Shown piece by piece: positions 4,229-61,547 of a stretch of DNA of 61,547 nucleotides. Under the pieces are notes generated by a model, which was given only the letters and a program-made list of their open reading frames with translations, made no database searches and was not told where the DNA came from. The position numbers and the translations under genes are program-made. This stretch comes from Acidobacteriota bacterium (GTDB lineage: Bacteria; Acidobacteriota; Blastocatellia; UBA7656), in assembly GCA_016201275.1 (NCBI GenBank), contig JACQDB010000029.1, positions 1 to 61,547 on the forward strand, written 5' to 3'. The number at the start of each line of letters is the position of its first letter. The first letter of the stretch is position 1.

Positions 4229-4244
4229 TTTTACCTCACGGGGA

Positions 4245-4352
4245 GTTACTGGTTACTGGTTACTGGTTACTGGTTACTGGTTACTGGTTACTTGCCATCC
4301 GCAAATCACAAATCACAAATCACCAGTAACCAGTAACCAGTAACCAGTAACC
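4245..4352. repeat. Inverted tandem-heptamer hairpin (GTTACTG type)
   Basis: Six copies of GTTACTG in direct tandem plus a partial seventh (4245-4291) face four copies of the complementary heptamer (4323-4352). The arms can pair into a long stem. The loop between them holds a second tandem heptamer, AAATCAC, about three times. It fills the gap between serA and the DUF1015 gene. Two other loci in the window have the same architecture with different heptamers (25054-25268 and 28231-28367). Confidence 0.8.
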
Positions 4353-4357
4353 AAGAA

Positions 4358-5584
4358 CTAAATCAAATGACTCAACAAGCCATCGCGCAGCTTTGGCTCG
4401 AACCAGGTAGATTTGGGCGGCATGATTTGATTGGCATCCGACACCGCAATCAATTCATCGAGCGACACCGGATAAAGCGAAAAGCCTGCGGCGGCGCGGC
4501 CTTCATTGACCGCTTTTTCCAACGCCTCGGTGCCGCGTATGCCGCCGACAAAATCTATGCGCTTGTCGGTGCGAACATCTTTGATGCCCAACACAGAGTC
4601 CAACACATATTCCTGCAAAACGCTGACATCGAGCGCCCGTATAGGGTCATCCTTATCCACCACTTCGGGTCGTATGGTTATCCACCTCGCGCCGATGTAC
4701 ATACAGATTTCGCCTTTATGCACAGGCCGATTATAGCCCGGTTCGATGACCACAAAATCTTTTACCAAAGCGTCGAGGAACTGGCCTTCGCTGAGGCCGT
4801 GCAAATCTTTCACCAGCCGGTTGTACGGCAGAATTTGCAACTGCTCGGCGGGGAACAACACGGTTAGAAAATAGTTGTACTCTTCGTCGCCGCTGTGATG
4901 AGGATTTTGTTCGCGCAAGGTGGCGCGGGCGCGGCTGGCGCTGGCGGCGCGATGATGACCGTCGGCAATGTAGAGCAGCGGCACGGCTCCGAAAGCTTGC
5001 ACAACCGCTTGAGTGGCGGCATCCGTCATACGCCAGATAGTGTGTTTGACGCCATCCGGAGCCGTGAAATCAAAAAGTGCGTTCGCCTCTTTGCTGTCGT
5101 CAACCAGGCGGTTGAGGTCGTCGCGTCCGCGATAGGTCAGAAACACCGGCCCAGTTTGCGCTCGCAATGAAATCATGTGGCGAGTGCGGTCGTCCTCTTT
5201 ATCTTTGCGCGTGCGTTCGTGTTTGCGAATGGTGTCGTTGTCATAGTCGTCAAGCGCACAACAGGCGGCGATGCCGGTTTGCGCGTGCTTGCCCATTTGC
5301 AAACGATAAACATAGAGGCTGGGAGTTTCTTCAACGACGAGCGGCGCGGCGGTTTTCAATTTCTCGAAATTGGTTACGGCTCTTTCATAGACCGCATCGG
5401 CATAGGGATTGATGTCATCCACAAGTTCGAGTTCGGGGCGCGAAACGCGCAGAAAACTCAACGGATTGTTAGCGGCCAGCGCACGGGCTTCCGCCGTATT
5501 GACGACATCGTAAGGCACAGCGGAAACTTGCGCGGCCTGGTCGGGACGTGGAAGCAGAGCGCGAAACGGGCGAATGGTTGCCAT
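4358..5584 (-). CDS. DUF1015 family protein
   Basis: A 408-residue soluble protein matching DUF1015 in length and in landmarks: the N-terminal IRPFRALLP, AVPYDVVNT near residue 25, NPLSFLRVSRPE near 40, the charged KHERTRKDKEDDR near 120, and IADGHHRAASASRA near 210, which looks like an active-site or ligand loop. The family function is not settled as far as I know; it is distantly annotated with ParB/sulfiredoxin-like folds. It sits next to serA-serC on the same strand, which suggests, without proving, a role in serine or phosphoserine metabolism. The ATG at 5584 is preferred over the one two codons upstream because GGAG lies eight bases before it. Confidence 0.85.
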   Translation of the reverse strand: MATIRPFRALLPRPDQAAQVSAVPYDVVNTAEARALAANNPLSFLRVSRPELELVDDINPYADAVYERAVTNFEKLKTAAPLVVEETPSLYVYRLQMGKHAQTGIAACCALDDYDNDTIRKHERTRKDKEDDRTRHMISLRAQTGPVFLTYRGRDDLNRLVDDSKEANALFDFTAPDGVKHTIWRMTDAATQAVVQAFGAVPLLYIADGHHRAASASRARATLREQNPHHSGDEEYNYFLTVLFPAEQLQILPYNRLVKDLHGLSEGQFLDALVKDFVVIEPGYNRPVHKGEICMYIGARWITIRPEVVDKDDPIRALDVSVLQEYVLDSVLGIKDVRTDKRIDFVGGIRGTEALEKAVNEGRAAAGFSLYPVSLDELIAVSDANQIMPPKSTWFEPKLRDGLLSHLI

Positions 5585-5881
5585 AATCATTTCTCCAAAA
5601 AAATATCATAACGAGTGCCGCTCACACGGCAAACAAGTCGCGTTGTGAATCAGCAGGTTTGAAGGTGAATGCTATGCCGCAAGCGCAGGGCTGTCAACTG
5701 TGTGACTTTCGCCTGATGATTGGCAATGGCGCGAGTCGGCGTGAAAAACAGCGGCGCATTCTATGGCGTTCCAGAAAATCTCTTGGTCAAAAATCAGGCA
5801 AGGAGTTTGGCGATTTCGCTTACTGGAAGCGCGTACCTACTTGTTCGCCTGAATTCGCAATGCGGATGAAATCAAGCGCAA

Positions 5882-5920
5882 CCCTGTACGGGCGACCCTG
5901 CGGTGGTCGCCCGTACAGGG
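5882..5920. repeat. GTACGGGCGACC palindrome, short form
   Basis: A perfect 16-bp inverted repeat (CCCTGTACGGGCGACC and its complement) surrounds CTGCGGT. The same sequence, including the trailing CATGGGAAAAT, recurs at 40822-40924, where an extra inverted segment is present in the middle. Confidence 0.75.
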
Positions 5921-5970
5921 CATGGGAAAATCACTCAAGTCTTGCACTTGATTTCATCCACCATCCTGAA

Positions 5971-6486
5971 CTCGACTTTGTACATTTTCAGAGGCGAACC
6001 AGTCTTGCCAATCCCCCCGATGGCAATCGGGGGATGCTTAAAGCCCAACCTACAAAACGCCGCGCAACATCTACTAATCCCCCCGATGGCAATCGGGGGA
6101 TAGTTAAAGTCCAACCTACGAAACACCGCCAACGAGAAACGAATCCCCCCGATGGAAATCGGGGGATGGTTAAAGTCCAACCTTGCACTTTGCTTGCTTG
6201 GTGTGTAGGCTGGACTTTAACCATCCCCCAACTGCCGTTGGGGGGATTCAGACGAATGGCCAAACCGCCTCGGCTCCCGTTGGGGGGATTCAGATGAATT
6301 GCCTCACTGCCTCGGCTCTCCATTGGTAGATTTTTTAGTGGCGAAGCAGCCTGATTTCATTGGCTTTTTCAACCCTTGGAATGATTGAACCTCAGCTTGT
6401 TGAGGTGAGGTTCAATCATTCCAAGCGCGCACCGCAACGTCAGCCCTTGATTAGTGTTGTTCAATCTGAAATTGTACAAAGTCGAG
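5971..6486. mobile_element. 516-bp non-autonomous element with 22-bp TIRs and a stem-loop array
   Basis: The left end CTCGACTTTGTACATTTTCA (5971 onward) recurs inverted at the right end (6465-6486) with one mismatch over 22 bp. Inside are four full stem-loops (about 6013, 6079, 6144 and 6224) and remnants. Each has a stem CCCCCGAT/ATCGGGGG or CCCCCAAC/GTTGGGGG and usually a GGCA/TGCC loop, followed by TTAAAGTCCAACCT. The array flips orientation at about 6190. Positions 6346-6486 contain a 140-bp segment with its own palindrome (CTTGGAATGATTGAAC). About 300 bp of this element recurs inverted at 61197-61500. No open frame looks real. Mobility is inference. Confidence 0.65.
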
Positions 6487-9500: not shown

Positions 9501-12048
9501 AAAGTTTTTCACCCGGCAGCGGTCTAGGCTTCAGCAATTCCTGAAAGCGCGTCTGGAGAATTTGCATGGTCTTGTCGGTCAGCATATCGGCATCATAGAC
9601 TTCACAAGTCTGCGCGTCCCAATCCCGACTGACGGTAGCAAGCGTTTGCAAACCCGATTCGTGGTGGTCGCCGCGCACAATTTCGCTGAGGCAACCATAG
9701 CGGCTGCGCGTCAGCACCAGTAAATCTTCGAGCAGCTTGCTGAACAAAACCGGCGGTTGCACTTCGGTCAGAAATTCGCTCTGCGCTCGGCTCAACGCCT
9801 TCAACAAATCATTGCTCTGTTGCAACGCCTTCTGGCTGTGTTTCGAGTCGCTGATGTCGCGCAGAAAAGCGGTGAACATGGGCGCGCCATCCGTGGCAAT
9901 AGGCGCAATCGCCAAGTCGGCGGGAAACTCGCTGCCATCGGCGCGCAGGGCGATGACTTCTATGCGTCTGCCGGTCGCCTGTTGATCGCCCGCCGCGAAA
10001 TAGGGATCGAGCAACAAGCGCTGCTCGAATGTCATGGCGTGTTGCGCCATCAACTCGACAAAAAGTTTGCCGACGATCTGCTCGCAGCGATAGCCAAAAG
10101 TAGTTTCGGCGGCGGGATTGAATTCCACGACCTTGCCTTCGTGGTCAATGGTGATGATGCAATCGAGCGCCGATTGCAGAATCGCGCTCTTGCGGGCTTC
10201 GCTTTCGCGCATCGCATCTTCGGCGTGTTTGCGTTCGATAAACTGGCCGATTTGACTGCCGATGCTGGTCATCAAATTGAACAACTCAAAATCGGGAGGA
10301 CGCACCTGCGTGCAGAAAAACTCGACCACTCCCAAGGGCACCTCGCCCAGAAAAATCGGGAAGGCAAAAGCATTGTGCAGATTGGCCTTGGCCGCCTCTG
10401 ATGCTCGCGTAAAGAAATGCGTATCTTTGACATCATCTATCCACAGGGGTTTGCCGCCCGCCAGCACGCGCCCCGGCAAGCCTTCGCCCAAAGGCAATAC
10501 GGCGGCCCGCGTCACGGTGGCAAACTCTGCTATCGGCAACTCCACATCGCTCCAAAAAGCCCTGCACTCCAAGGCCGCAGTCTGACGATTCAATTTCCAG
10601 AACGCGCCGACTTTCCAATGCAAGGTTTTGCAGATGGTTTCCAGCACTTGGGGAATCGCTTCACTCAAGGAAACGGCTTTGGCCATAGTCTGGGTGATGG
10701 CCTCTTGCGCGTGCAGGCGATTCTGTATGGCCTTCTGTGCGCTGAGGTCACGCGCCACCCAAGAAATATAGCGTACATCGTCGCTGCGCGATTTATGGGC
10801 GATGACGACTTGCGAGATCGGCAACGCTTGGCCATTGGCGGTACGCAATCGGCTTTCGCCGCTCCATACGCCTTGCGTGATGGCTTGCGGGATGGCCTCT
10901 TTTTGCAGTACGGCGGCAGCCTCGCGTCCCAGAAAATCGCTGAACTGCCGATGCTTTAAATCTTCATCGTCGCCGATTCCCAAGGCTTTTTTCATGGCGG
11001 CGTTGGCGTATAACAACTGGCCTTCAGGAGTGGCCGTGATAACAAAGTCGGTGGTCGCTTCGACGATGGATTTCAAACGATGATTCAAGGCTTCGGAGTC
11101 ACGAAACTCGGTCAAATCCTGAGCGTGACCCACCACATAAGGTGGCTTCCCCGGCTCTTCATACAACGAGTTGCTGTACACCCATATGCGCTGCTGCCCT
11201 CTTCTGGTGACCACAATTAAATAACCGCTGACGCTCTTCTCTTTCTGTATGCGTTGCAGATAGTCAGCCCATAAATGCCGCACCGAAGGGTGCAGCAGGT
11301 CGGTCATTTTTTTGCCCGTCAGTTCTTCCCGATCATAGCCCAGGCTATTGGCCGCCGCCGGATTGAAGGAGAGCAATTTGCCTTGTAAATCGTGTATGCA
11401 GATTAATCCTTTGCTTTTGGTCACCAATTCGCGGTAGCGTTTTTCGCTTTCGACGAGGGCTTTTTCGGCAATCTTGCGCTGCGTCACATCGCGAAAGATG
11501 GCGCGGATGGCAATGGGTTTGCCGTTGCGGAAACTGCAATTCATCGTGCCTTCGACAATGATGGTCTTGCCGGATTTGGTTACCAAAGAGGCTTCTTCCA
11601 AGCCGCTCTTTTTGCCCGCCATCAGGGTTTTGAGAGTACGCAGACAATCATCTTTGCAGTCGGGATGAAGAATGTCGAACAACGACAGGGCGGCGAGTTC
11701 TGTGGCCTTGTAGCCCAGAGCTTTCAGCCACGCCTGATTGACATAAAGAAATTTGCCGCCCGGCGTCACGCTCTGAATCAAATCGCTGGCGTTCTCTAAC
11801 ATATCCCGATGGCGCTCTTCGCTCTCGCGCAAATCGGCTTCGACTTCCTGACGCTCGCGCAGATCGTTGATCGTCCAGCGATAGGCAACAAACAGGACGA
11901 ACAGCACGAAGGCGGCAGCGCCCAATAAGGCAATGCTGTCAAAGAAAGTGACCGACAAATTCACAAACAGCATCAGCGTCATGAAAAAGAACAAGACCAG
12001 ATAGAGGCCAAAGCCTATCCACATCTTTTTTTTGACAGAGGTTTCCAT
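6526..12048 (-). CDS. Hybrid sensor histidine kinase with PAS, GAF, three receivers and HPt
   Basis: An 1840-residue inner-membrane phosphorelay kinase. Two membrane helices lie at residues about 8-55 with almost no periplasmic part. PAS domains centre near residues 110, 220, 340, 640 and 945, and GAF domains near 480-600 and 760-910. The HisKA H-box SHEIRTPLN is near 1073 and the ATPase G-box GGSGLGLS near 1254. Receiver aspartates lie in LLDKVMPGMDG (about 1363), LMDIQMPLMDG (about 1504) and LLDMEMPVLNG (about 1628). A C-terminal HPt domain has HDMKGCG near 1789. All relay elements look intact. The frame extends upstream, but the ATG at 12048 follows GGAAGGG and starts just before the first helix. 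It is divergent from a sigma-54 regulator, its likely partner by position only. Confidence 0.93.
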   Translation of the reverse strand: METSVKKKMWIGFGLYLVLFFFMTLMLFVNLSVTFFDSIALLGAAAFVLFVLFVAYRWTINDLRERQEVEADLRESEERHRDMLENASDLIQSVTPGGKFLYVNQAWLKALGYKATELAALSLFDILHPDCKDDCLRTLKTLMAGKKSGLEEASLVTKSGKTIIVEGTMNCSFRNGKPIAIRAIFRDVTQRKIAEKALVESEKRYRELVTKSKGLICIHDLQGKLLSFNPAAANSLGYDREELTGKKMTDLLHPSVRHLWADYLQRIQKEKSVSGYLIVVTRRGQQRIWVYSNSLYEEPGKPPYVVGHAQDLTEFRDSEALNHRLKSIVEATTDFVITATPEGQLLYANAAMKKALGIGDDEDLKHRQFSDFLGREAAAVLQKEAIPQAITQGVWSGESRLRTANGQALPISQVVIAHKSRSDDVRYISWVARDLSAQKAIQNRLHAQEAITQTMAKAVSLSEAIPQVLETICKTLHWKVGAFWKLNRQTAALECRAFWSDVELPIAEFATVTRAAVLPLGEGLPGRVLAGGKPLWIDDVKDTHFFTRASEAAKANLHNAFAFPIFLGEVPLGVVEFFCTQVRPPDFELFNLMTSIGSQIGQFIERKHAEDAMRESEARKSAILQSALDCIITIDHEGKVVEFNPAAETTFGYRCEQIVGKLFVELMAQHAMTFEQRLLLDPYFAAGDQQATGRRIEVIALRADGSEFPADLAIAPIATDGAPMFTAFLRDISDSKHSQKALQQSNDLLKALSRAQSEFLTEVQPPVLFSKLLEDLLVLTRSRYGCLSEIVRGDHHESGLQTLATVSRDWDAQTCEVYDADMLTDKTMQILQTRFQELLKPRPLPGEKLSPLVSPVAEFIRGALEFRAVLALPIYCGDEMIGMLGLADRADGFDDALLEFLQPFTAACGNLLQAYRNEQKRKQAEQEVATLSLVASKTDNAVLITNHRQQIEWVNDAFTRMTGYSLEEMRGRMPREILIGPDADSETLRHLDEALQAKINFTVEILQYRKNGEPHWVSMNISPVLNEAGEVLQFIAVQTEITERMNKEEALCQAMVAAEAASVAKSQFLAVMSHEIRTPLNAIIGMTDLALHTKLTPEQYEYLKTVQTNSEALLYLINDILDFSKIEGGQMDLDKLAFNPAEIVEGVAEMLSVRAVSKRLELVCNIGDALPLRVLGDPNRFRQILLNLVGNALKFTEVGEVVITLEALESADAETVELAITVADTGIGIAAQHRDKVFEKFYQADNSTTRKYGGSGLGLSISKLLAEKLNGRLWFDSEGGKGSTFYCRLPFALVEGCEASGKVEAFCDYRALVVDDNSSSLTQLTRLLQALGLTVASARRGSQALEMLQAEGAAYDVILLDKVMPGMDGVELARTLRRLPNYAHTRLILMSPLGMEDAALMQELHIGEPLSKPVLKARLQQALTQALPTRKAPPAPPATIVEAAPKNQLHAEPHRYAILVVEDNPANQHLARRILESAGYAVEIAENGKLAVEYSRERIYDLILMDIQMPLMDGITATAEIRKMEKQRHQRPTPIVALTAHAIEGYREKCIENGMNEYLSKPVNRKLLLNIVNQWLDKRPVVLIVDDSAPSHILIKNYLKEAEYQLFFAHNGQQGLEFLKRHWVSLVLLDMEMPVLNGYATATAIRQLGGFEQLPVIAMTGHDGLEEKQKCLASGCSDYVAKPLRKQNILEVIDRNLRAACVPAPLPQADIKAVEKADIAATVQVEMPICEPLAETVEPVAAAEVCVYVDEDIADLVPEFLEGRRDDVQKIRAMIEEHNYSVLYTLGHDMKGCGMGYGFEEISLIGKHIEAAAKEQNAPEILLWNNKLADYLNAVKVMTR

Positions 12049-12673
12049 GTGCAACCCTTCCGTTGGGTATCCTGAAAATATGTGGTGGCCTAGTGCAGGG
12101 AAGAACGGTCGGACTGCCAATCAACACGGCAGCGGTTCTTCATCGCCTTATCATGTACACAGTTTCGCTTTTGGGGAAGACTTTTATTAAAGATTTTTTC
12201 AATCCCCCCAACGGCAGTTGGGGGATACTTAAAGTCCAGCCTACACCACAGGCAAGCAAAGTTTTTTGCAATCCCCCCAACTGCCGTTGGGGATACTTAA
12301 AGTCCAGCCTACACCACAGGCAAGCAAAGTTTTTTAACAATCCCCCAACGGCAGTTGGGGGATAGTTAAAGTCCAGCCTTGAGCCTCGGGCAAGGCTGGA
12401 CTTTAACTATCCCCCGATTGCCATCAGGGGGATTCATTTATCGTTGACAGCGTTGCGTAGGCTGGACTTTAAGCATCCACTGACTGCCATCGGGGGGATT
12501 GGCAAGGTTGGTGCGCCTCGTTTTGCCGCTTCGCAGAAAAAAAATTCGCTGAAGTGAGTTTTTTGTATTGACTGTTTTTCCGCTTGCCTCATAATGAACT
12601 CGCACTGCACAAGGCCACATAATTTTTCATCACACCTCATCCACACCTTAGTCCCGTAACGCTCTCACGAAGT
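12049..12673. repeat. Stem-loop repeat cluster B between kinase and regulator
   Basis: At least five stem-loops of the CCCCC..GGCA..GGGGG family lie at about 12203, 12273, 12341, 12411 and 12477. The first three are in direct orientation and spaced by a roughly 68-bp unit containing CCAGCCTACACCACAGGCAA and GCAAAGTTTTTT. The last two are inverted. The remaining sequence (12049-12190 and 12510-12673) should hold the divergent promoters of the kinase and the regulator; I could not identify clear boxes. Confidence 0.75.
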
Positions 12674-14185
12674 ATGCAAAATCAAGATGTAAAACAGGGA
12701 ACCGTTATTCTGGTTGATGATGACAGTACCTTCTGCCTGCTGGTCAAACGCTGGGTTGAGCTTGCCGGATATAAGGTTGAAGTATTCGGTGATGGCGAAT
12801 CCTGCTTGGCCGGTTTGGGCAGCGTATTGCCTTCGGTGGTCTGTCTGGATTTAACTTTGCCCAGTCTGGGCGGCCTCGAAGTCTTACAAAAAATTAAAGA
12901 GCTTCATCGTCATTTACCCGTCATTATTTTGACCGCCAATACCTCTATAGATACCGTGGTCACCGCCATGCAGCTTGGTTCTTATGATTATCTGGTCAAG
13001 CCGGTGGACCGCACCAAACTGGTTACCACCATCAAGAACGCCGTCGAGCATTACCAGATGTCGCTGCGTCTGGCGCAACTCGAACGCGAAGTGGGCGGCA
13101 TCGGCTATCCCGGCATTATCGGCAACTCTCCGGCTATGAAGCGCATTTATCGGCAGGTGGATCAAGTTGCCACCAGCGACATCACGGTTCTGGTGCATGG
13201 CGAAAGCGGCACCGGCAAAGAGTTGATCGCCCGCGCCATTCACAGCAACAGCGGACGCGCCAAAAATGCTTTTATCGCGTTGAACTGCGCCGCCATTCCT
13301 GAAGCCTTGCAGGAATCCGAACTCTTCGGTCACGAGCGCGGCTCGTTTACCGGAGCCCTCAATCGGCGCTTGGGCAAATTTGAACAGGCCGATGGCGGCA
13401 CTTTGTTTTTAGATGAAGTCGCCGAATTGAGTTTGGGATTGCAGGCCAAATTGCTGCGCGTCCTGCAAGAAAAAAGTTATCAACGGCTGGGCGGCTCTAC
13501 GGAATTGCGTTCCGATTTTCGCCTGGTCGCCGCCACCCACAGAAATCTCGCCGACGAAGTTAAGGCCGGACGCTTTCGCGATGACCTCTATTTTCGCATC
13601 GCGGTATTCGAGTTGGAATTGCCGCCGCTGCGCGAGCGCCGCGAAGACATCTTGCTGCTGGCGCAGAATTTTCTGCAAACCTTGAGCGCGCAGTACGGCG
13701 GCAAGCAATTTTTTCTTTCAACTGAAGCCATTGACTTGCTGATGAATTATGCGTGGCCTGGCAATGTGCGCGAGTTGCAGAATTCCATGCAGCGCGCCTT
13801 TGTTACGGCAACCGGCGAGAACATTTTACCAAGCGATCTGCCGAGCCGCCTCTTCCAGAACAACGTCGTGAACTTGTCCAGCCAGGAGCGCTCCATACGC
13901 CTCGAAGCCATCGGCAACCGGCTGCCCAACCACGAGGGCAGAGCGGCAGGCGAAACCCCGTTTCCGATTCCCTACGCCATGCCGATCACTGCAACTCCCG
14001 GCGCGCCGTTGAAATTTCCGACCTTCAATCTTGAAGAGTTGGAACGTCTGGCTATCGAAGAAGCTATCAAACAATGCGGCGACAATATGTCGGAAGTCAT
14101 TCGTCGCCTGGGCATCGGTAGAACCACCTTCTACAGGAAATTGAAAGAATACAACCTCTGCGATAGACGCCGCTTGAGCGCCTGA
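12674..14185 (+). CDS. Sigma-54-dependent response regulator, NtrC family
   Basis: This 503-residue activator has a receiver domain (residues 1-125; VDDD and the phospho-acceptor in CLDLTLP near 57; lysine in YLVKPVD). An AAA+ domain (about 140-370) has Walker A GESGTGKE and the sigma-54 contact loop as GSFTGA where GAFTGA is usual. A Fis-type helix-turn-helix closes the protein (about 455-500, ending GRTTFYRKLKEY). It would bind enhancer sites and drive open-complex formation by sigma-54 polymerase when phosphorylated. A single-domain receiver follows on the same strand 40 bp later, and a hybrid kinase is divergent. The A-to-S change in the GAFTGA loop is noted but may be tolerated. Confidence 0.95.
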   Translation: MQNQDVKQGTVILVDDDSTFCLLVKRWVELAGYKVEVFGDGESCLAGLGSVLPSVVCLDLTLPSLGGLEVLQKIKELHRHLPVIILTANTSIDTVVTAMQLGSYDYLVKPVDRTKLVTTIKNAVEHYQMSLRLAQLEREVGGIGYPGIIGNSPAMKRIYRQVDQVATSDITVLVHGESGTGKELIARAIHSNSGRAKNAFIALNCAAIPEALQESELFGHERGSFTGALNRRLGKFEQADGGTLFLDEVAELSLGLQAKLLRVLQEKSYQRLGGSTELRSDFRLVAATHRNLADEVKAGRFRDDLYFRIAVFELELPPLRERREDILLLAQNFLQTLSAQYGGKQFFLSTEAIDLLMNYAWPGNVRELQNSMQRAFVTATGENILPSDLPSRLFQNNVVNLSSQERSIRLEAIGNRLPNHEGRAAGETPFPIPYAMPITATPGAPLKFPTFNLEELERLAIEEAIKQCGDNMSEVIRRLGIGRTTFYRKLKEYNLCDRRRLSA

Positions 14186-24362: not shown

Positions 24363-25100
24363 ATGGAATCCGAGAAATTTGCAATGCCGGATGAAATCCC
24401 GATTTTTCCTTTGGCAACGGTTCTCTGTCCCGGCGTGATTTTGCCGCTGCACGTTTTTGAACAGCGCTACAAAGAGATGATGCGTTATGCCATAGAGAAC
24501 GGCGGATTATTTGGACTTTCCTTCCACGACAACGCCAACGTCGGCAAAGAGAGTGTGCCGGAACCGGGCAGCATCGGCTGTCTGGCAAAGATCAATGCGG
24601 TGATGCCGTTGGAAGAAGGCCGCTTGAATTTAATCACCTCCGGCATCGTGCGCTACAAAGTGATCAGCTATACCCAGACCTTGCCGTTTTTGATTGCCCG
24701 CATTGAAGCCTTTGCCGACGAACCGGAACACGATGAAGAGTTGACGCGCTTGTTTGAGAGTCTGAAAAAACCCGGACAAGAGTTAGTGACAGCAGCGCAA
24801 AGCCTCAATGAAACCGGGGCGCTCTTTGATCCCGATCTGCCGGACGACCCGGAAGCCTTCTCGCTTTACATGACTTCGCTGTTGCCGGTTAACAACGAGG
24901 TGAAGCAAACTTTTCTAGCGATGTCTTCGACCCGCAGCCGCCTGATCCGCTTAAAAAGCTTAATCCACGATACGCTGGCAAAATTCACCACGCGCTTACA
25001 GATGCAGGAACGCGCCAAGACCAACGGGCATGGGAAACTGCGTCAGACAGAAGAGGGTGGGAGAAACGGGGAGACGGGGAGAAAGGGAGTAAGGGAGTAA
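24363..25100 (+). CDS. LON substrate-binding-domain protein (no protease domain)
   Basis: A 245-residue protein corresponding to the N-terminal substrate-binding domain of Lon: EIPIFPLATVLCPGVILPLHVFEQRYKEMM at the start, IGCLAKINAV, and the closing helix TLAKFTTRLQMQERAK. There is no AAA+ or Ser-Lys protease part, so it is one of the stand-alone LON-domain proteins of unknown role. The last 25 or so residues (GGRNGETGRKGVRE) are encoded by a tandem heptamer repeat, so the native C-terminus seems to have been replaced or extended by it. Confidence 0.88.
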   Translation: MESEKFAMPDEIPIFPLATVLCPGVILPLHVFEQRYKEMMRYAIENGGLFGLSFHDNANVGKESVPEPGSIGCLAKINAVMPLEEGRLNLITSGIVRYKVISYTQTLPFLIARIEAFADEPEHDEELTRLFESLKKPGQELVTAAQSLNETGALFDPDLPDDPEAFSLYMTSLLPVNNEVKQTFLAMSSTRSRLIRLKSLIHDTLAKFTTRLQMQERAKTNGHGKLRQTEEGGRNGETGRKGVRE

Positions 25101-25268
25101 GGGAGACCGGGAGACGGGGAGACGGGGAGATATACGGTGACTCTTTGATTTTATCGTCATAAATTGTATCAAAGCTGATTCCAGAATTAAGAAAGAGGTT
25201 AGTGAGAATCGCATCTAATTTTCCCGGTCTCCCCTTCTTCTCTTCTCCCGGTCTCCCCGTCTTTTTCC
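25054..25268. repeat. Inverted tandem-heptamer hairpin (GGGGAGAC type)
   Basis: The left arm (about 25054-25130) is a degenerate tandem of GGGAGAC/GGGAGTAA units. The right arm (about 25221-25268) is the complementary CCCGGTCTCC series. About 90 bp of AT-rich sequence lies between. The left arm enters the 3' end of the LON-domain gene and the right arm abuts the stop codon of the dehydrogenase gene, so the hairpin fills a convergent intergenic gap and could terminate both genes. Confidence 0.75.
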
Positions 25269-37168: not shown

Positions 37169-37663
37169 GAAATCGTTTGCCCTCTCTTCTCAATCATGAT
37201 TAACGCCTATTTCAGGCTGGTCTGGCAACCCGAATCGGCTGAAGAATGCGCCATCGAGTGCAAGTAAAAGTGAGACGCCAGCACAAAGAAACTTCCTGTT
37301 CGCAGCCCTGCAAGGGCGCAATTCTATAGCCTAGCGCAGCGCGCTAGGAAAGAGCTTCACGCGGTCAACGAGCGCCCTTTCAGGGCTAGGAATGGATGGC
37401 TCGCGCCTACCCAGTCCGTTGGACTGGGCTATAGAATTGTGCCCTTTCAGGGCTGCGAACCCGCACGGGCGAAAATAGCTTGTCAAACCAATAGCCGCAA
37501 CCGAGTCTCACTTTTCATTGCACCCCTCATTAAGTGAGGCGATCCTTTACATAGAGTTGTCCATCACTCAGCCAGACTTCTAGCCAAGGTTCTGCATCAC
37601 GAAATGTCCACAGTATCAATCTACCTTTGTTACAGAGTGCGTTGCGCTCCTTGCCAAGCTGGC
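37169..37663. other. Non-coding region holding an inverted-repeat element
   Basis: The main content is the 266-bp element 37258-37523, listed separately. The remaining 37524-37663 shows nothing recognisable. Confidence 0.6.
37258..37523. mobile_element. MITE-like element with GTGCAA..GTGAGAC ends
   Basis: The left end (37258-37276) reads GTGCAAGTAAAAGTGAGAC. The right end (37505-37523) is its reverse complement with two mismatches over 19 bp. Inside are several smaller palindromes: GCCCTTTCAGGGCT-type sequences, CTAGCGC/GCGCTAG, and CCCAGTCC/GGACTGGG. A single matching end lies at 34749-34767. No open frame is convincing. Mobility is inference. Confidence 0.55.
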
Positions 37664-40482: not shown

Positions 40483-41086
40483 AAATTTCTCCAGCAATGC
40501 TATACGATGTAAGCGTCCGCAGAGGCTTGCGGAACGATGAAGAAGGAGGCCGAAACCATCGCCCGACAGCGCCCTTCCCAGCAATGCGCCAACAGTAAAT
40601 CACCAAACCTAAACGAACGCAAGCGCCTACTTAAAACTATGCGAAACCACTTCGCCTTCTTGATTCATTGGCGTTGCGGCTTGCAGAAATCGCTTTGACC
40701 CGGCAATAGCGCAAGAGGTTTGGTTGGCGGCCAAGAGACTCACATCCTTGCCAGTCACGGGCTTGCAGTTGGCTCTCGATAGATGATTCGACGGCCTAGG
40801 AATGTGGATAAAATAATCTGCAACCCTGTACGGGCGACCCTGCGGTGGTCGCCCCGCCTTGAAATTCATTAGCTTTCAAGGCGGGGCGACCACCGCAGGG
40901 TCGCCCGTACAAGGCATGGGAAAATTACTCACGTTTTGCAGGCTATATCTTCCATATTCCTAAGAAGCAAAACCCCAAGCCTGTCACCGCGAAGCACATC
41001 AGGGACACCAAGCGTAAATAGAGACGCCAGGTCTTGGGGGTTCAGGGTGTGCTTTGCGGTCAAAAACCTGATGTGATTTTCAAGCC
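40483..41086. repeat. Non-coding region with a 37-bp perfect inverted repeat and a second long hairpin
   Basis: Positions 40828-40864 and 40874-40910 are exact reverse complements over 37 bp around a 9-base loop. The outer part is the GTACGGGCGACC palindrome also at 5882-5920. Positions about 40990-41070 form a second, imperfect long stem (ACCGCGAAGCACA with TGTGCTTTGCGGT, and GACACCAA with TTGGGGGT inside) just past the phasin stop codon, a possible terminator. The apparent frame 40627-40869 starts inside the inverted repeat and is not called. Confidence 0.75.
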
Positions 41087-49789: not shown

Positions 49790-50265
49790 TAGTGTCCTAA
49801 TCTTATGGCGCTGTTTGGATAGTCCGCGAAGTGGGCGCAAGCATACAGCCACGGGGGTTAGCCGGTGGACGAACGCCTAGCCGTATGGTTAGCCCCCTTC
49901 GCGGACGATAGCCAATTAGCTGAAGAGTGTGCATAAATCGGAAAGCGAAAAACACGAAAGGTAGGACTTTTTTCAACTTTTTCAAGCGAGGAGAAAAATT
50001 GAGCCTCACGAAATGCGTGTCAGGCTCACCACCCCCGCATGAATAAAGCATTATGCACACTCTTCTATTATCTATCACCCGCTTCGCGGGTTAGGAGGTA
50101 ATCACGACTCGCCTCCCCAGCGCTGACGCACTGGGCTTTATGCGGTCACCCGCTACGCGGGTTAAGAGGCAATGACGATTAGCCTACCCAGCGCTCACGC
50201 ACTGGGCTTTATGCGGTCACCCGCTGCGCGGGTTCTCACCGACTACCACAACTGTAGGACACTAC
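49790..50265. mobile_element. Repeat element with AGTGTCCTAA / TTAGGACACT-type ends, copy 1
   Basis: The left end TAGTGTCCTA (49790) and the right end TAGGACACTA (50255-50264) are inverted repeats. Inside are tandem palindromes: ACCCGC..GCGGGT and CCCAGCGCTGACGCACTGGG-type units in direct repeats about 70-75 bp long. A second copy of about 305 bp lies at 55681-55985 with matching ends and shared inner text (TATGG..CGAAGTGG.CGCAAGCAT). No open frame is convincing. Confidence 0.6.
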
Positions 50266-50280
50266 CGATCTATATGCCAA

Positions 50281-52591: not shown

Positions 52592-52932
52592 GATCAACCA
52601 CCAAATCACTTCGCCACGAAGACCTCAAAGCCAAAGCTCAACTTGGTACATTTTTCAGAGGCGAACCGAGCTTGCCAATTCCACCGATGGCAAGCGGTGG
52701 ATGGTTAAAATCCAATCTACAAAACACAGCGCAACATCAACCAATCCCTCCAACGGTAGTTGGGGATGGGTAAAGCCCAACCTACAAAACGCTGCCAACG
52801 ATAAACGAATCCCACCGCTTGCCATCGGCGGGATTCAGGCGTATGCCCAAACTGTATCGGTGAAGCACTCAAGCATCTTTGTGTTCTTGATGGTCTTCGT
52901 AGTTGGGAAACGGATAGGCTTTTCAAGCCTGT
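52592..52932. repeat. Stem-loop repeat cluster C
   Basis: The cluster starts with CTCAACTTGGTACATTTTTC (52637), a degenerate copy of the element end at 5971, then CAGAGGCGAACC. Stem-loops follow at about 52681 (CCACCG/CGGTGG around a GGCA-containing loop), about 52745 (CAACGGTAGTTG, short arms) and about 52811 (CCCACCG/CGGCGGG). The stem CCACC/GGTGG has changed on both sides relative to CCCCC/GGGGG. No second terminal repeat is seen. No gene is supported. Confidence 0.7.
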
Positions 52933-55598: not shown

Positions 55599-56110
55599 CG
55601 GTATAGTACCTCCGTAAGGTCAGTGAAAGCTGTAGAGTACAGGCATTGTCGGACAGCACCGGGATTGTGTCAAGCAAGTCGTGTCCTAATCGTATGGTGC
55701 GGTTGGCTAGCCCACGAAGTGGACGCAAGCATAAAGCCACGGGCTAACGCCCGTGGACGAACGCCCATTCACACTGTTAGCCCGCCAAGCGGGTGATAGA
55801 TAATTGGCTATCACCCGCTTGGCGGGTCAAGGCAATTACGATTCGCACACCCAGCGCTGACGCACTGGGCTTTAGGCGGTCACCCGCTGCACGAGTTAGG
55901 AAGCAATCACGACTCGCCTACCTAGCGCTTTATGCGGTCACCGGCTGCGCGGGTTCTCACCTACTACCACAATTTTAGGATCCTACCGTCAAGCAAGGCA
56001 CAGGCCACCCGAAGTTAAGAAGAGCTTTTCATCAGGAGCGCGAACCCCTTTGTCCGCGCTCCGCGTTTCAACTGGGTTGGGTAACGATTGCAACCGGCAG
56101 CAAGAAAAAT
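55599..56110. other. Non-coding region with repeat element copy 2
   Basis: Positions 55681-55985 are a shorter copy of the 49790-50265 element: GTGTCCTAAT at the left, TAGGATCCTA at the right, and inside a perfect palindrome (ACCCGCTTGGCGGGT) and CCCAGCGCTGACGCACTGGG. The remaining ends show nothing recognisable. Confidence 0.6.
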
Positions 56111-61196: not shown

Positions 61197-61547
61197 CTCG
61201 ACTTTGTACAATTTCAAATTGAACAACACTAATCAAGGGCTGACGTTGCGGTTCGCGCTTGGAATGATTGCACCTCACCTCAACAAGCTGACGTTCAATC
61301 ATTCCAAGGGTTGAAATAGCCAATGAAATCAGGCTGCTGCGCTGCTGGAAAATCCAGCAACGCAGAGCCGAGGCAGTTAGGCCATTCATCTGAATCCCCC
61401 AACGGAAAGCCAAGGCGGTTTGGCAATTCGTCTGAATCCCCCCAACGGCAGTTGGGGATGCTTAAAGTCCAGCCTACATACCGCAGGCAAACAAAGTTTT
61501 TTTGCAATCCCCCCAACGGCAGTTGGGGGATAGTTAAAGTCCAGCCT
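61197..61547. mobile_element. Second copy of the 516-bp repeat element, cut by the window edge
   Basis: CTCGACTTTGTACAATTTCA (61197) is the same terminal repeat as at 6465-6486. Positions 61197-61337 are near-identical, in inverted orientation, to 6346-6486, including the CTTGGAATGATTG palindrome. The CCCCCAACGGCAGTTGGGGG stem-loops follow at about 61440 and 61508, with the same GAGCCGAGGCAG and GTCTGAATCC spacers. The element continues past the window, so its far end is unknown. Confidence 0.7.

Follow-up and report, generated by a model that had tools for sequence, protein, structure and literature searches.

Clustered REP-type DNA hairpins in an Acidobacteriota genome and their probable partner, a split and fused Y1 transposase

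The window analyzed here is the whole 61,547-nucleotide stretch of contig JACQDB010000029.1 of an Acidobacteriota bacterium, in which a repeat cluster at 12200-12501 lies between two divergent genes, one for a large sensor kinase that combines PAS/GAF and receiver domains, the other for a sigma-54 response regulator. The original prediction, made from the letters alone, had placed stem-loops at 12203-12500, with direct units repeating about every 68 bp before a flip. These stem-loops proved to be genuine, and five units were identified at 12200-12501, of which three are direct (68 and 69 bp apart) and, after a reversal of orientation, two are inverted (66 bp apart). At the flip the cores occupy 12366-12379 and 12393-12406, with 13 bp between them and their outer ends 40 bp apart. 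All four clusters that had been claimed for the window were recovered, at approximately 6009-6315, 12200-12501, 52676-52860, and 61433-61547, together with the three stem types named for them, of which CCACCG/CGGTGG sits at 52676-52720. The features of the clusters are as follows.

6009-6053, + strand: REP-type unit, stem GAT/ATC
6075-6119, + strand: REP-type unit, stem GAT/ATC
6141-6185, + strand: inner REP-type unit, stem GAT/ATC
6205-6249, - strand: REP-type unit, stem AAC/GTT
6274-6315, - strand: partial unit copy and spacer (family D6), 86% to 6232-6273
12200-12244, + strand: REP-type unit, stem CCCCCAAC/GTTGGGGG followed by TTAAAGTCCAGCCTAC, GTAG on the - strand; fold -9.1 kcal/mol, z -2.5
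12268-12312, + strand: REP-type unit with inverted loop (TGCC, not GGCA); fold z -2.3
12337-12381, + strand: inner REP-type unit ending CCTTG, not CCTAC, and without GTAG; fold z -4.5
12380-12392, no strand: centre of the head-to-head junction, core outer ends 40 bp apart
12391-12435, - strand: inverted inner REP-type unit, one mismatch in its GAT/ATC stem; fold z -2.4
12457-12501, - strand: outer REP-type unit, inverted, stem decayed; fold z +0.5
52676-52720, + strand: REP-type unit, stem CCACCG..CGGTGG
52741-52785, + strand: REP-type unit, core diverged (3 mismatches)
61433-61477, + strand: REP-type unit
61505-61547, + strand: REP-type unit, truncated by the window end

Folded as single-stranded DNA, the 311-nt cluster gave -100.2 kcal/mol in comparison to a mean of -41.0 for shuffled sequences (sd 3.4, n=100), which corresponds to a z of -17.4. 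The unit at 12457-12501 is not intact; its pairs are broken, and equal or better folding was obtained in 139 of 200 shuffles. Adjoining two of the clusters, at 6375-6425 and 61258-61308, is a 51-nt palindrome (CTTGGAATGATTG...CAATCATTCCAAG), whose half motif was seen near clusters at 7 other loci and which is possibly another repeat family.

Read on the other strand, a typical unit has GTAG, then roughly 16 nt that include a T(G/T)AA motif, and then an 8-bp GC-rich hairpin. Among 82 gene-side hairpins scored, a few of them spurious, the tag was GTAG in 59, TTAG in 16, and different in 7, and it stood 13 to 17 nt from the hairpin, most often 15-17 nt, the distance being 16 nt in 54 cases. This arrangement is unlike that of canonical REPs, which carry GT(A/G)G directly at the hairpin foot (passages of PMC2817692 and PMC6006769) or 1-2 nt off it in some members of subclass 2.5. 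The bases preceding the stem vary, as was checked against the hairpin foot CnGA of class 3, and at least 14 units have the loop in inverted orientation. A second hairpin in the linker (GGTT..AACC) was considered and rejected on alignment A2 by inspection, because G precedes TTAAAG in some of the units and not in others, whereas the base that it would pair with hardly varies.

The genome (G000; 6,840,417 bases, or 6.84 Mb, in 162 contigs) contains the pattern TTAAAGTCCARCCT 132+139 times (at least 271 copies), in comparison to 1+0 for the reversed control pattern, and the exact core TTAAAGTCCAGCCT 54+59 times. As in a REP family, there are more than 100 copies per genome and they are mostly intergenic. 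For the intergenic test, 18 of 65 clusters were excluded for lying at stretch ends, and overlaps of up to 30 bp and ORFs mainly within the repeat were ignored; 41 of the 47 interior clusters were free of ORFs of at least 120 aa, in comparison to 1116 of 3479 random intervals assessed by identical criteria. Two of the six overlapping clusters flank the transposase gene on contig C80, described below, on either side. The genes beside clusters (n=45) were arranged in tandem in 26 cases, convergently in 14, and divergently in 5.

We also scored 72 unit groups, a few of which are single chance matches, in the window and in 60 stretches of G000, which for the most part surround core sites. Both orientations were present in 49 of the 72 groups; a head-to-head junction was likewise found in 49 of 72, with the core outer ends 40 bp apart, as at the junction in the window, in 38 of the 49. 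The spacing of direct units was usually 65-67 on one side, as compared with 67-72 on the opposite one, and the inner units mostly end CCTTG (mostly without GTAG) and the outer units mostly CCTAC. Several contigs start or stop inside clusters (e.g., C2, C9, C38, C68, and C70), and the repeat probably breaks the assembly at contig ends.

The claim that changes on one stem arm are matched on the other, so that the fold is maintained, was examined by the covariation test that had been proposed for it. The within-genome set comprised 241 units, of which 182 were distinct; 150 were drawn at random, and 138 of these together with three window units gave an alignment of 141 distinct units. The 12 units omitted were three chance matches (5 core mismatches) and nine units, a few of these decayed, that were removed manually under no fixed criterion; the omission biases the set slightly toward pairing. 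The results showed that 96.4% of cells pair and that 113 cells are double-changed in comparison to a shuffle mean of 35.9, with none of 500 shuffles as high, while sliding the partner by 1-3 columns left at most 13 double-changed cells. The double-changed pairs were three (alignment columns 9-25, 12-21, and 14-19), a number not above that in shuffles (224/500). Taken alone, the within-genome covariation is weak, because the cells are copies of one another and, by our estimate, about four double changes followed by copying could explain them.

Among 231 stems scored, 172 were perfect, 56 had one mismatch, and 3 had two, as expected of the palindromic, maintained hairpin of a REP. The perfect stems fell into the types CCCCCAAC (105), CCCCCGAT (48), CCCCCGAC (11), CCACCGAC (7), and CCGCCAAC (1). 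Stem types are shared across spacer classes, suggesting that copying or conversion moved whole hairpins, and the within-genome signal may thus rest on few events.

A cross-genome alignment was built from 54 of 73 distinct perfect-stem hairpins and four window units, leaving out 16 more diverged hairpins of the G022, G132, G133b, and G005c types and three spurious ones. Double changes were found at six of ten pairs (4 of 500 shuffles as high), and the number of double-changed cells was 69 in comparison to 22.1 in shuffles (0 of 500 as high). Because the units of this alignment, except for the four from the window, had been picked for perfect stems, the comparison was repeated free of that selection, with sites picked only by [GT]TAG-N7-9-T[GT]AA near 14 loci of the tandem gene introduced below; 70 of 84 such sites had at least 7 of 8 stem matches, in comparison to 1.45% in shuffles. 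Overall, the reading of matched arm changes as a sign of a maintained fold is supported.

The original prediction had allowed for a fold kept in DNA or RNA, and these two parts fared differently. If the hairpins were RNA elements (small RNAs, transcript ends, or mRNA stabilisers) whose fold is selected in RNA, a stable, intergenic hairpin would be expected, as is observed, and known REPs can affect transcripts (PMC6006769, in part). Selection on one RNA strand should, however, be visible in the mismatches, and G-T and A-C mismatches were about equally frequent, 13 and 15 (p 0.85) without the loop-closing pair and 22 and 15 (p 0.32) with it, so that no strand is favoured and selection for a one-strand RNA is not seen. 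Both orientations are present in most unit groups, Rfam at gathering scores returned no match inside the window clusters, and a promoter and terminator scan of 12000-12800 gave no terminator-like site and one promoter-like site, near chance. We consider this RNA explanation highly improbable, and folded DNA is the better reading of the maintained stem.

A search with PF01797 (Y1 transposase) gave 8 matches in G000, two of which are the halves of one open frame on contig C80.

L062:2521-3351 (stop codon excluded), - strand: tandem Y1 transposase gene, contig C80, two PF01797 matches

This gene is bordered on both sides by copies of the window repeat in inverted orientation with GTAG toward the gene, and the TAG of the REP downstream serves as the stop codon of the gene, while no repeat copy was found in 2.5-3 kb around two other Y1 genes of G000 (L043, L068). 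The presence of the other Y1 genes would make it conceivable that the hairpins are MITE-like derivatives of a single-domain IS200/IS605 element moved by one of those enzymes, and the tag-linker-hairpin layout is similar to the left end of IS200; against this, the flanking tie is to the tandem gene, in G000 and, with other hairpins, in relatives, which renders the explanation unlikely.

Both halves of the tandem protein match IS200/Y1 models and solved TnpA chains. Four proteins of this kind passed the IS200 model NF033573 (cut-off 55 bits) with 146.6, 138.0, 127.8, and 117.5 bits, in two stretches each, and failed the NCBIfam model REP_Tyr_transpos NF047646 (cut-off 80 bits) with 57.5, 56.8, 64.0, and 36.4 bits; the values for the protein of the C80 gene are 146.6 and 57.5 bits, respectively. 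The proteins of alignment A1 are 272-277 aa long and consist of two domains between which the motifs are split, unlike the single core of about 150 aa with both HUH and Y in IS200/IS605 enzymes. Tyr122 and Gln126 of domain 1 align to VKQYIENQ of IS608 TnpA, and Arg65 occupies the position of the second histidine in the HUH of that enzyme; His207 and His209 of domain 2 align to the HUH of ISDra2 TnpA, and Phe272 is at its catalytic tyrosine position. We take the aligned residues of the IS608 and ISDra2 enzymes to be the catalytic ones.

The same split was seen when motifs were tallied over 15 sequences, fragments included. The second His of HUH1 was lost in all 12 sequences covered (Arg in 10, Gln in L091, and a broken frame in L098), with the first His remaining in 6 of 12, while the Y1 tyrosine was kept in 14 of 14 and HUH2 in 15 of 15. 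In place of Y2, 13 of 14 sequences have F or W; the exception is G022, which has Tyr but no Gln four residues on. All 14 sequences covered at the Y1 motif read Y-x3-Q-x2-HH, and not the Y motif followed by NP of class 2 RAYTs. In a tree of nine full-length members with only three outgroups, domains 1 and domains 2 formed two groups with 99/95 support, as expected from one fusion. An AlphaFold2 model of L077 from four alignment rows (mean pLDDT 53.8, pTM 0.49) showed the helix/strand order recurring in both halves and is too poor for distances. The active site of IS608 is formed in trans, one monomer contributing the tyrosine and its partner the HUH (PMC5934647, in part), and IS608 TnpA works as a dimer, whereas E. 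coli TnpA-REP appears monomeric (PMC6006769, in part). Since the IS608 site is built across the dimer and the motifs here are split between the halves, the fused chain looks, from this comparison, like a one-chain pseudo-dimer with a single composite active site.

The same data bear on whether the units could be ordinary REPs of a canonical RAYT (class 2 TnpA-REP), with nothing new in the enzyme. A GTAG tag, inverted flanking copies, and clusters are also found with RAYTs (PMC2817692, in part), and G000 has one Y1 gene, L016, with the class-2-like motif YIHNNP. The 3 kb around that gene (L068) hold no repeat copy, however, and the gene that is flanked lies below the RAYT cut-off and above the IS200 cut-off, has Y-x3-Q as its Y motif, and goes with a tag about 16 nt from the hairpin and not at its foot. 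We judge this explanation improbable.

To place the tandem gene among its relatives, 84,980 species genomes were scanned, and four relatives with 51-59% identity were confirmed, all in Acidobacteriota (one in Pyrinomonadaceae, one in Blastocatellia, and two genes in one Terriglobia assembly). The gene was found in 8 of 162 genomes of the class Blastocatellia (E 1e-25) and in at least 3 of 396 genomes of an even phylum sample in which the best 6 candidates per genome were considered, the three being in the same class. Two loci are contained in others, L090 (G005, a genome of the same family as G000) in L078 and L088 (G142) in L077. As G005 thereby corresponds to the relative in Blastocatellia, G000 is presumed to belong to that class. 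No relative was confirmed in viral contigs, and all 391 matching plasmid records had less than 60% identity, the best ten being annotated IS200/IS605 transposases with about 30%.

We tallied 14 distinct loci that carry the tandem gene or a fragment of it, and 10 of them, including all five loci of alignment A1, had inverted perfect-stem hairpins within 700 nt on both sides; in this tally the fragments L095 and L103 were excluded, and L101 and L102 duplicate L097 and L092. The arrangement of a RAYT gene flanked by two inverted cognate REPs is thus present at the G000 gene and at 10 of 14 loci overall. At the other four (L093, L094, L098, and L100) the inverted hairpin was missing on one side, and L094 starts near a contig end. 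Additional hairpins in opposite orientation occur at L079, L080, L091, and L093. Of the 9 full-length loci, 7 have a stop codon that falls within or abuts the closest scored REP, the exceptions being L093 (87 nt away) and L094 (62 nt away, though by eye the stop is in an imperfect unit). The hairpin sequence differs among the loci, the stems beside genes including CCCCCAAC, CCACCAAC, CCACCGAC, CCCCCGAC, and CCCCCAGC as well as CCACCCAC, CCCCAACC, CCCCGGAG, CCACCTGC, and CCACCGC. Further tandem Y1 genes or fragments with other hairpin types, e.g., CCATCGG with a 7-nt loop, were observed at L094, L098, L099, and L100 (G132, G133, and G005), three of which share the motif split where readable.

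At the level of genomes, a REP model of the main type, for which copy counts are lower bounds as the best 150 or best 39 candidates per genome were scored, had matches in 18 of the 162 class genomes. These included 6 of 8 genomes with the tandem gene in comparison to 12 of 154 without it (p 2e-5), and five of those six had fed the model; with the model-feeding genomes set aside, the proportions were 1 of 3 and 11 of 153 (p 0.21), so that this tie is not independently shown. Five genomes (G006, G141, G143, G144, and G157) had from 22 to at least 39 REP matches and no tandem gene found, and a looser search of the 12 REP genomes without the gene gave one-domain matches only, together with one fragment spanning the domain junction (G016). 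Gene loss or assembly gaps are possible in these genomes. Such REP-rich genomes would also fit clusters kept for a chromosome function, e.g., the binding of gyrase or IHF that is known for BIMEs (PMC2817692, in part), and dispersed through recombination instead of transposase action, and the stem types common to several spacer classes suggest conversion between copies; the hairpins fused to the ends of transposase genes would be unexplained, and we regard this account as unlikely.

Considered together, the results indicate that the units are probably REP-type DNA hairpins, short non-coding repeats of a kind that functions in single-stranded form, and part of a variant system of the REP/RAYT kind, whose probable enzyme is a split, fused Y1 transposase with an activity that we infer from its anatomy. 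Under this interpretation, the enzyme would bind the hairpin while its strand is single, e.g., during replication, and would cut close to the hairpin, the domain 1 tyrosine being positioned at the metal site formed by the HUH of domain 2; strand joining by the enzyme could then spread, multiply, and invert the units. The stem would be kept because the enzyme reads folded DNA, and the head-to-head clusters may be amplification products, BIME or REPIN-like, retained between genes where they are least harmful. For the history of the system, we give about even chances to the proposal that one fusion made a transposase of the IS200 branch into a single-chain pseudo-dimer, that the two halves underwent complementary half-site losses, and that REP life arose in parallel to class 2 RAYTs, using hairpins like those of the IS200 left end. 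If true, the REP/transposase arrangement would have originated twice.

The system shares with REP/RAYT systems (REPtrons, BIMEs, and REPINs) a GTAG-tagged hairpin of high copy number, intergenic placement, clusters of inverted units, and a transposase gene between inverted REPs whose hairpin sequence varies with the gene. It differs in the T(G/T)AA motif between tag and hairpin and in its enzyme, a two-domain fusion of the IS200 branch that scores below the RAYT model cut-off, and it looks like a REPtron that does not have all the defining features of a RAYT. The IS200/IS605 TnpA proteins of subclass 1.1 (IS608 and ISDra2) are similar in that both domains match their Y1/IS200 models, and the tag-linker-hairpin layout recalls the left end of IS608, in which the hairpin comes after a tetranucleotide, a stretch, and a guide (PMC5934647, in part), but the present chain has two domains with half a site each and its hairpins are dispersed as REPs. 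Domain 1 carries the Y-x3-Q-x2-HH signature of TnpA-Y1 subclass 1.2, whose members, as described in part of PMC6006769, have a median of 148 aa, come mostly from Cyanobacteria and Bacteroidetes, and have no REPs, unlike the two-domain, REP-associated proteins studied here. Class 3, according to that source, is likewise partly from Acidobacteria and has many associated hairpins, but has a median of 178 aa and a Y-x4-Q signature that is not found here; its hairpins have the foot CnGA.

Among the search results in the accessible literature, none dealt, by its title or abstract, with a Y1 REP transposase in tandem or fused form, and earlier notice elsewhere is possible. The parts consulted of PMC6006769, PMC3733652, PMC2817692, PMC12306157, PMC8266576, and PMC5934647 do not mention a fusion of such kind; in those of the first four the word 'fused' is absent, and 'tandem' has no such use in three of the four. 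Quentin et al. 2018 set aside a small number of proteins of unexpectedly great length, which came from fusions or annotation errors (PMC6006769, in part). The present system bears on how REPs spread and how the transposase of a mobile element turns into a REP enzyme. If the natural fused chain indeed has exactly one composite site, it would provide an independent and easily mutated test system for whether loss of the second active site converts a transposon into a REP system, and the stem variants, each beside its own gene, form a ready co-evolution data set.

Several other repeats and elements were observed in the window. An Acido-Lenti-1 RNA (RF01687) was matched at 37304-37348 on the - strand with 44.9 bits, within a long imperfect inverted repeat at 37298-37460. 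Repeats with 71 bp spacing and a palindrome like CACCCGCTNCGCGGGT, perhaps a second REP-like family, are located at 50067-50267 and 55803-55988. Arms of 41 nt that are 98% complementary and 9 nt apart, with CCCTGTACGGGCGACC, occur at two places (40824-40914 and 5859-5967). A tandem GTTACTG array followed by its inverted copy occupies 4244-4359, and a purine-rich array with an 8-bp period, plus an inverted counterpart, lies at 25051-25262.
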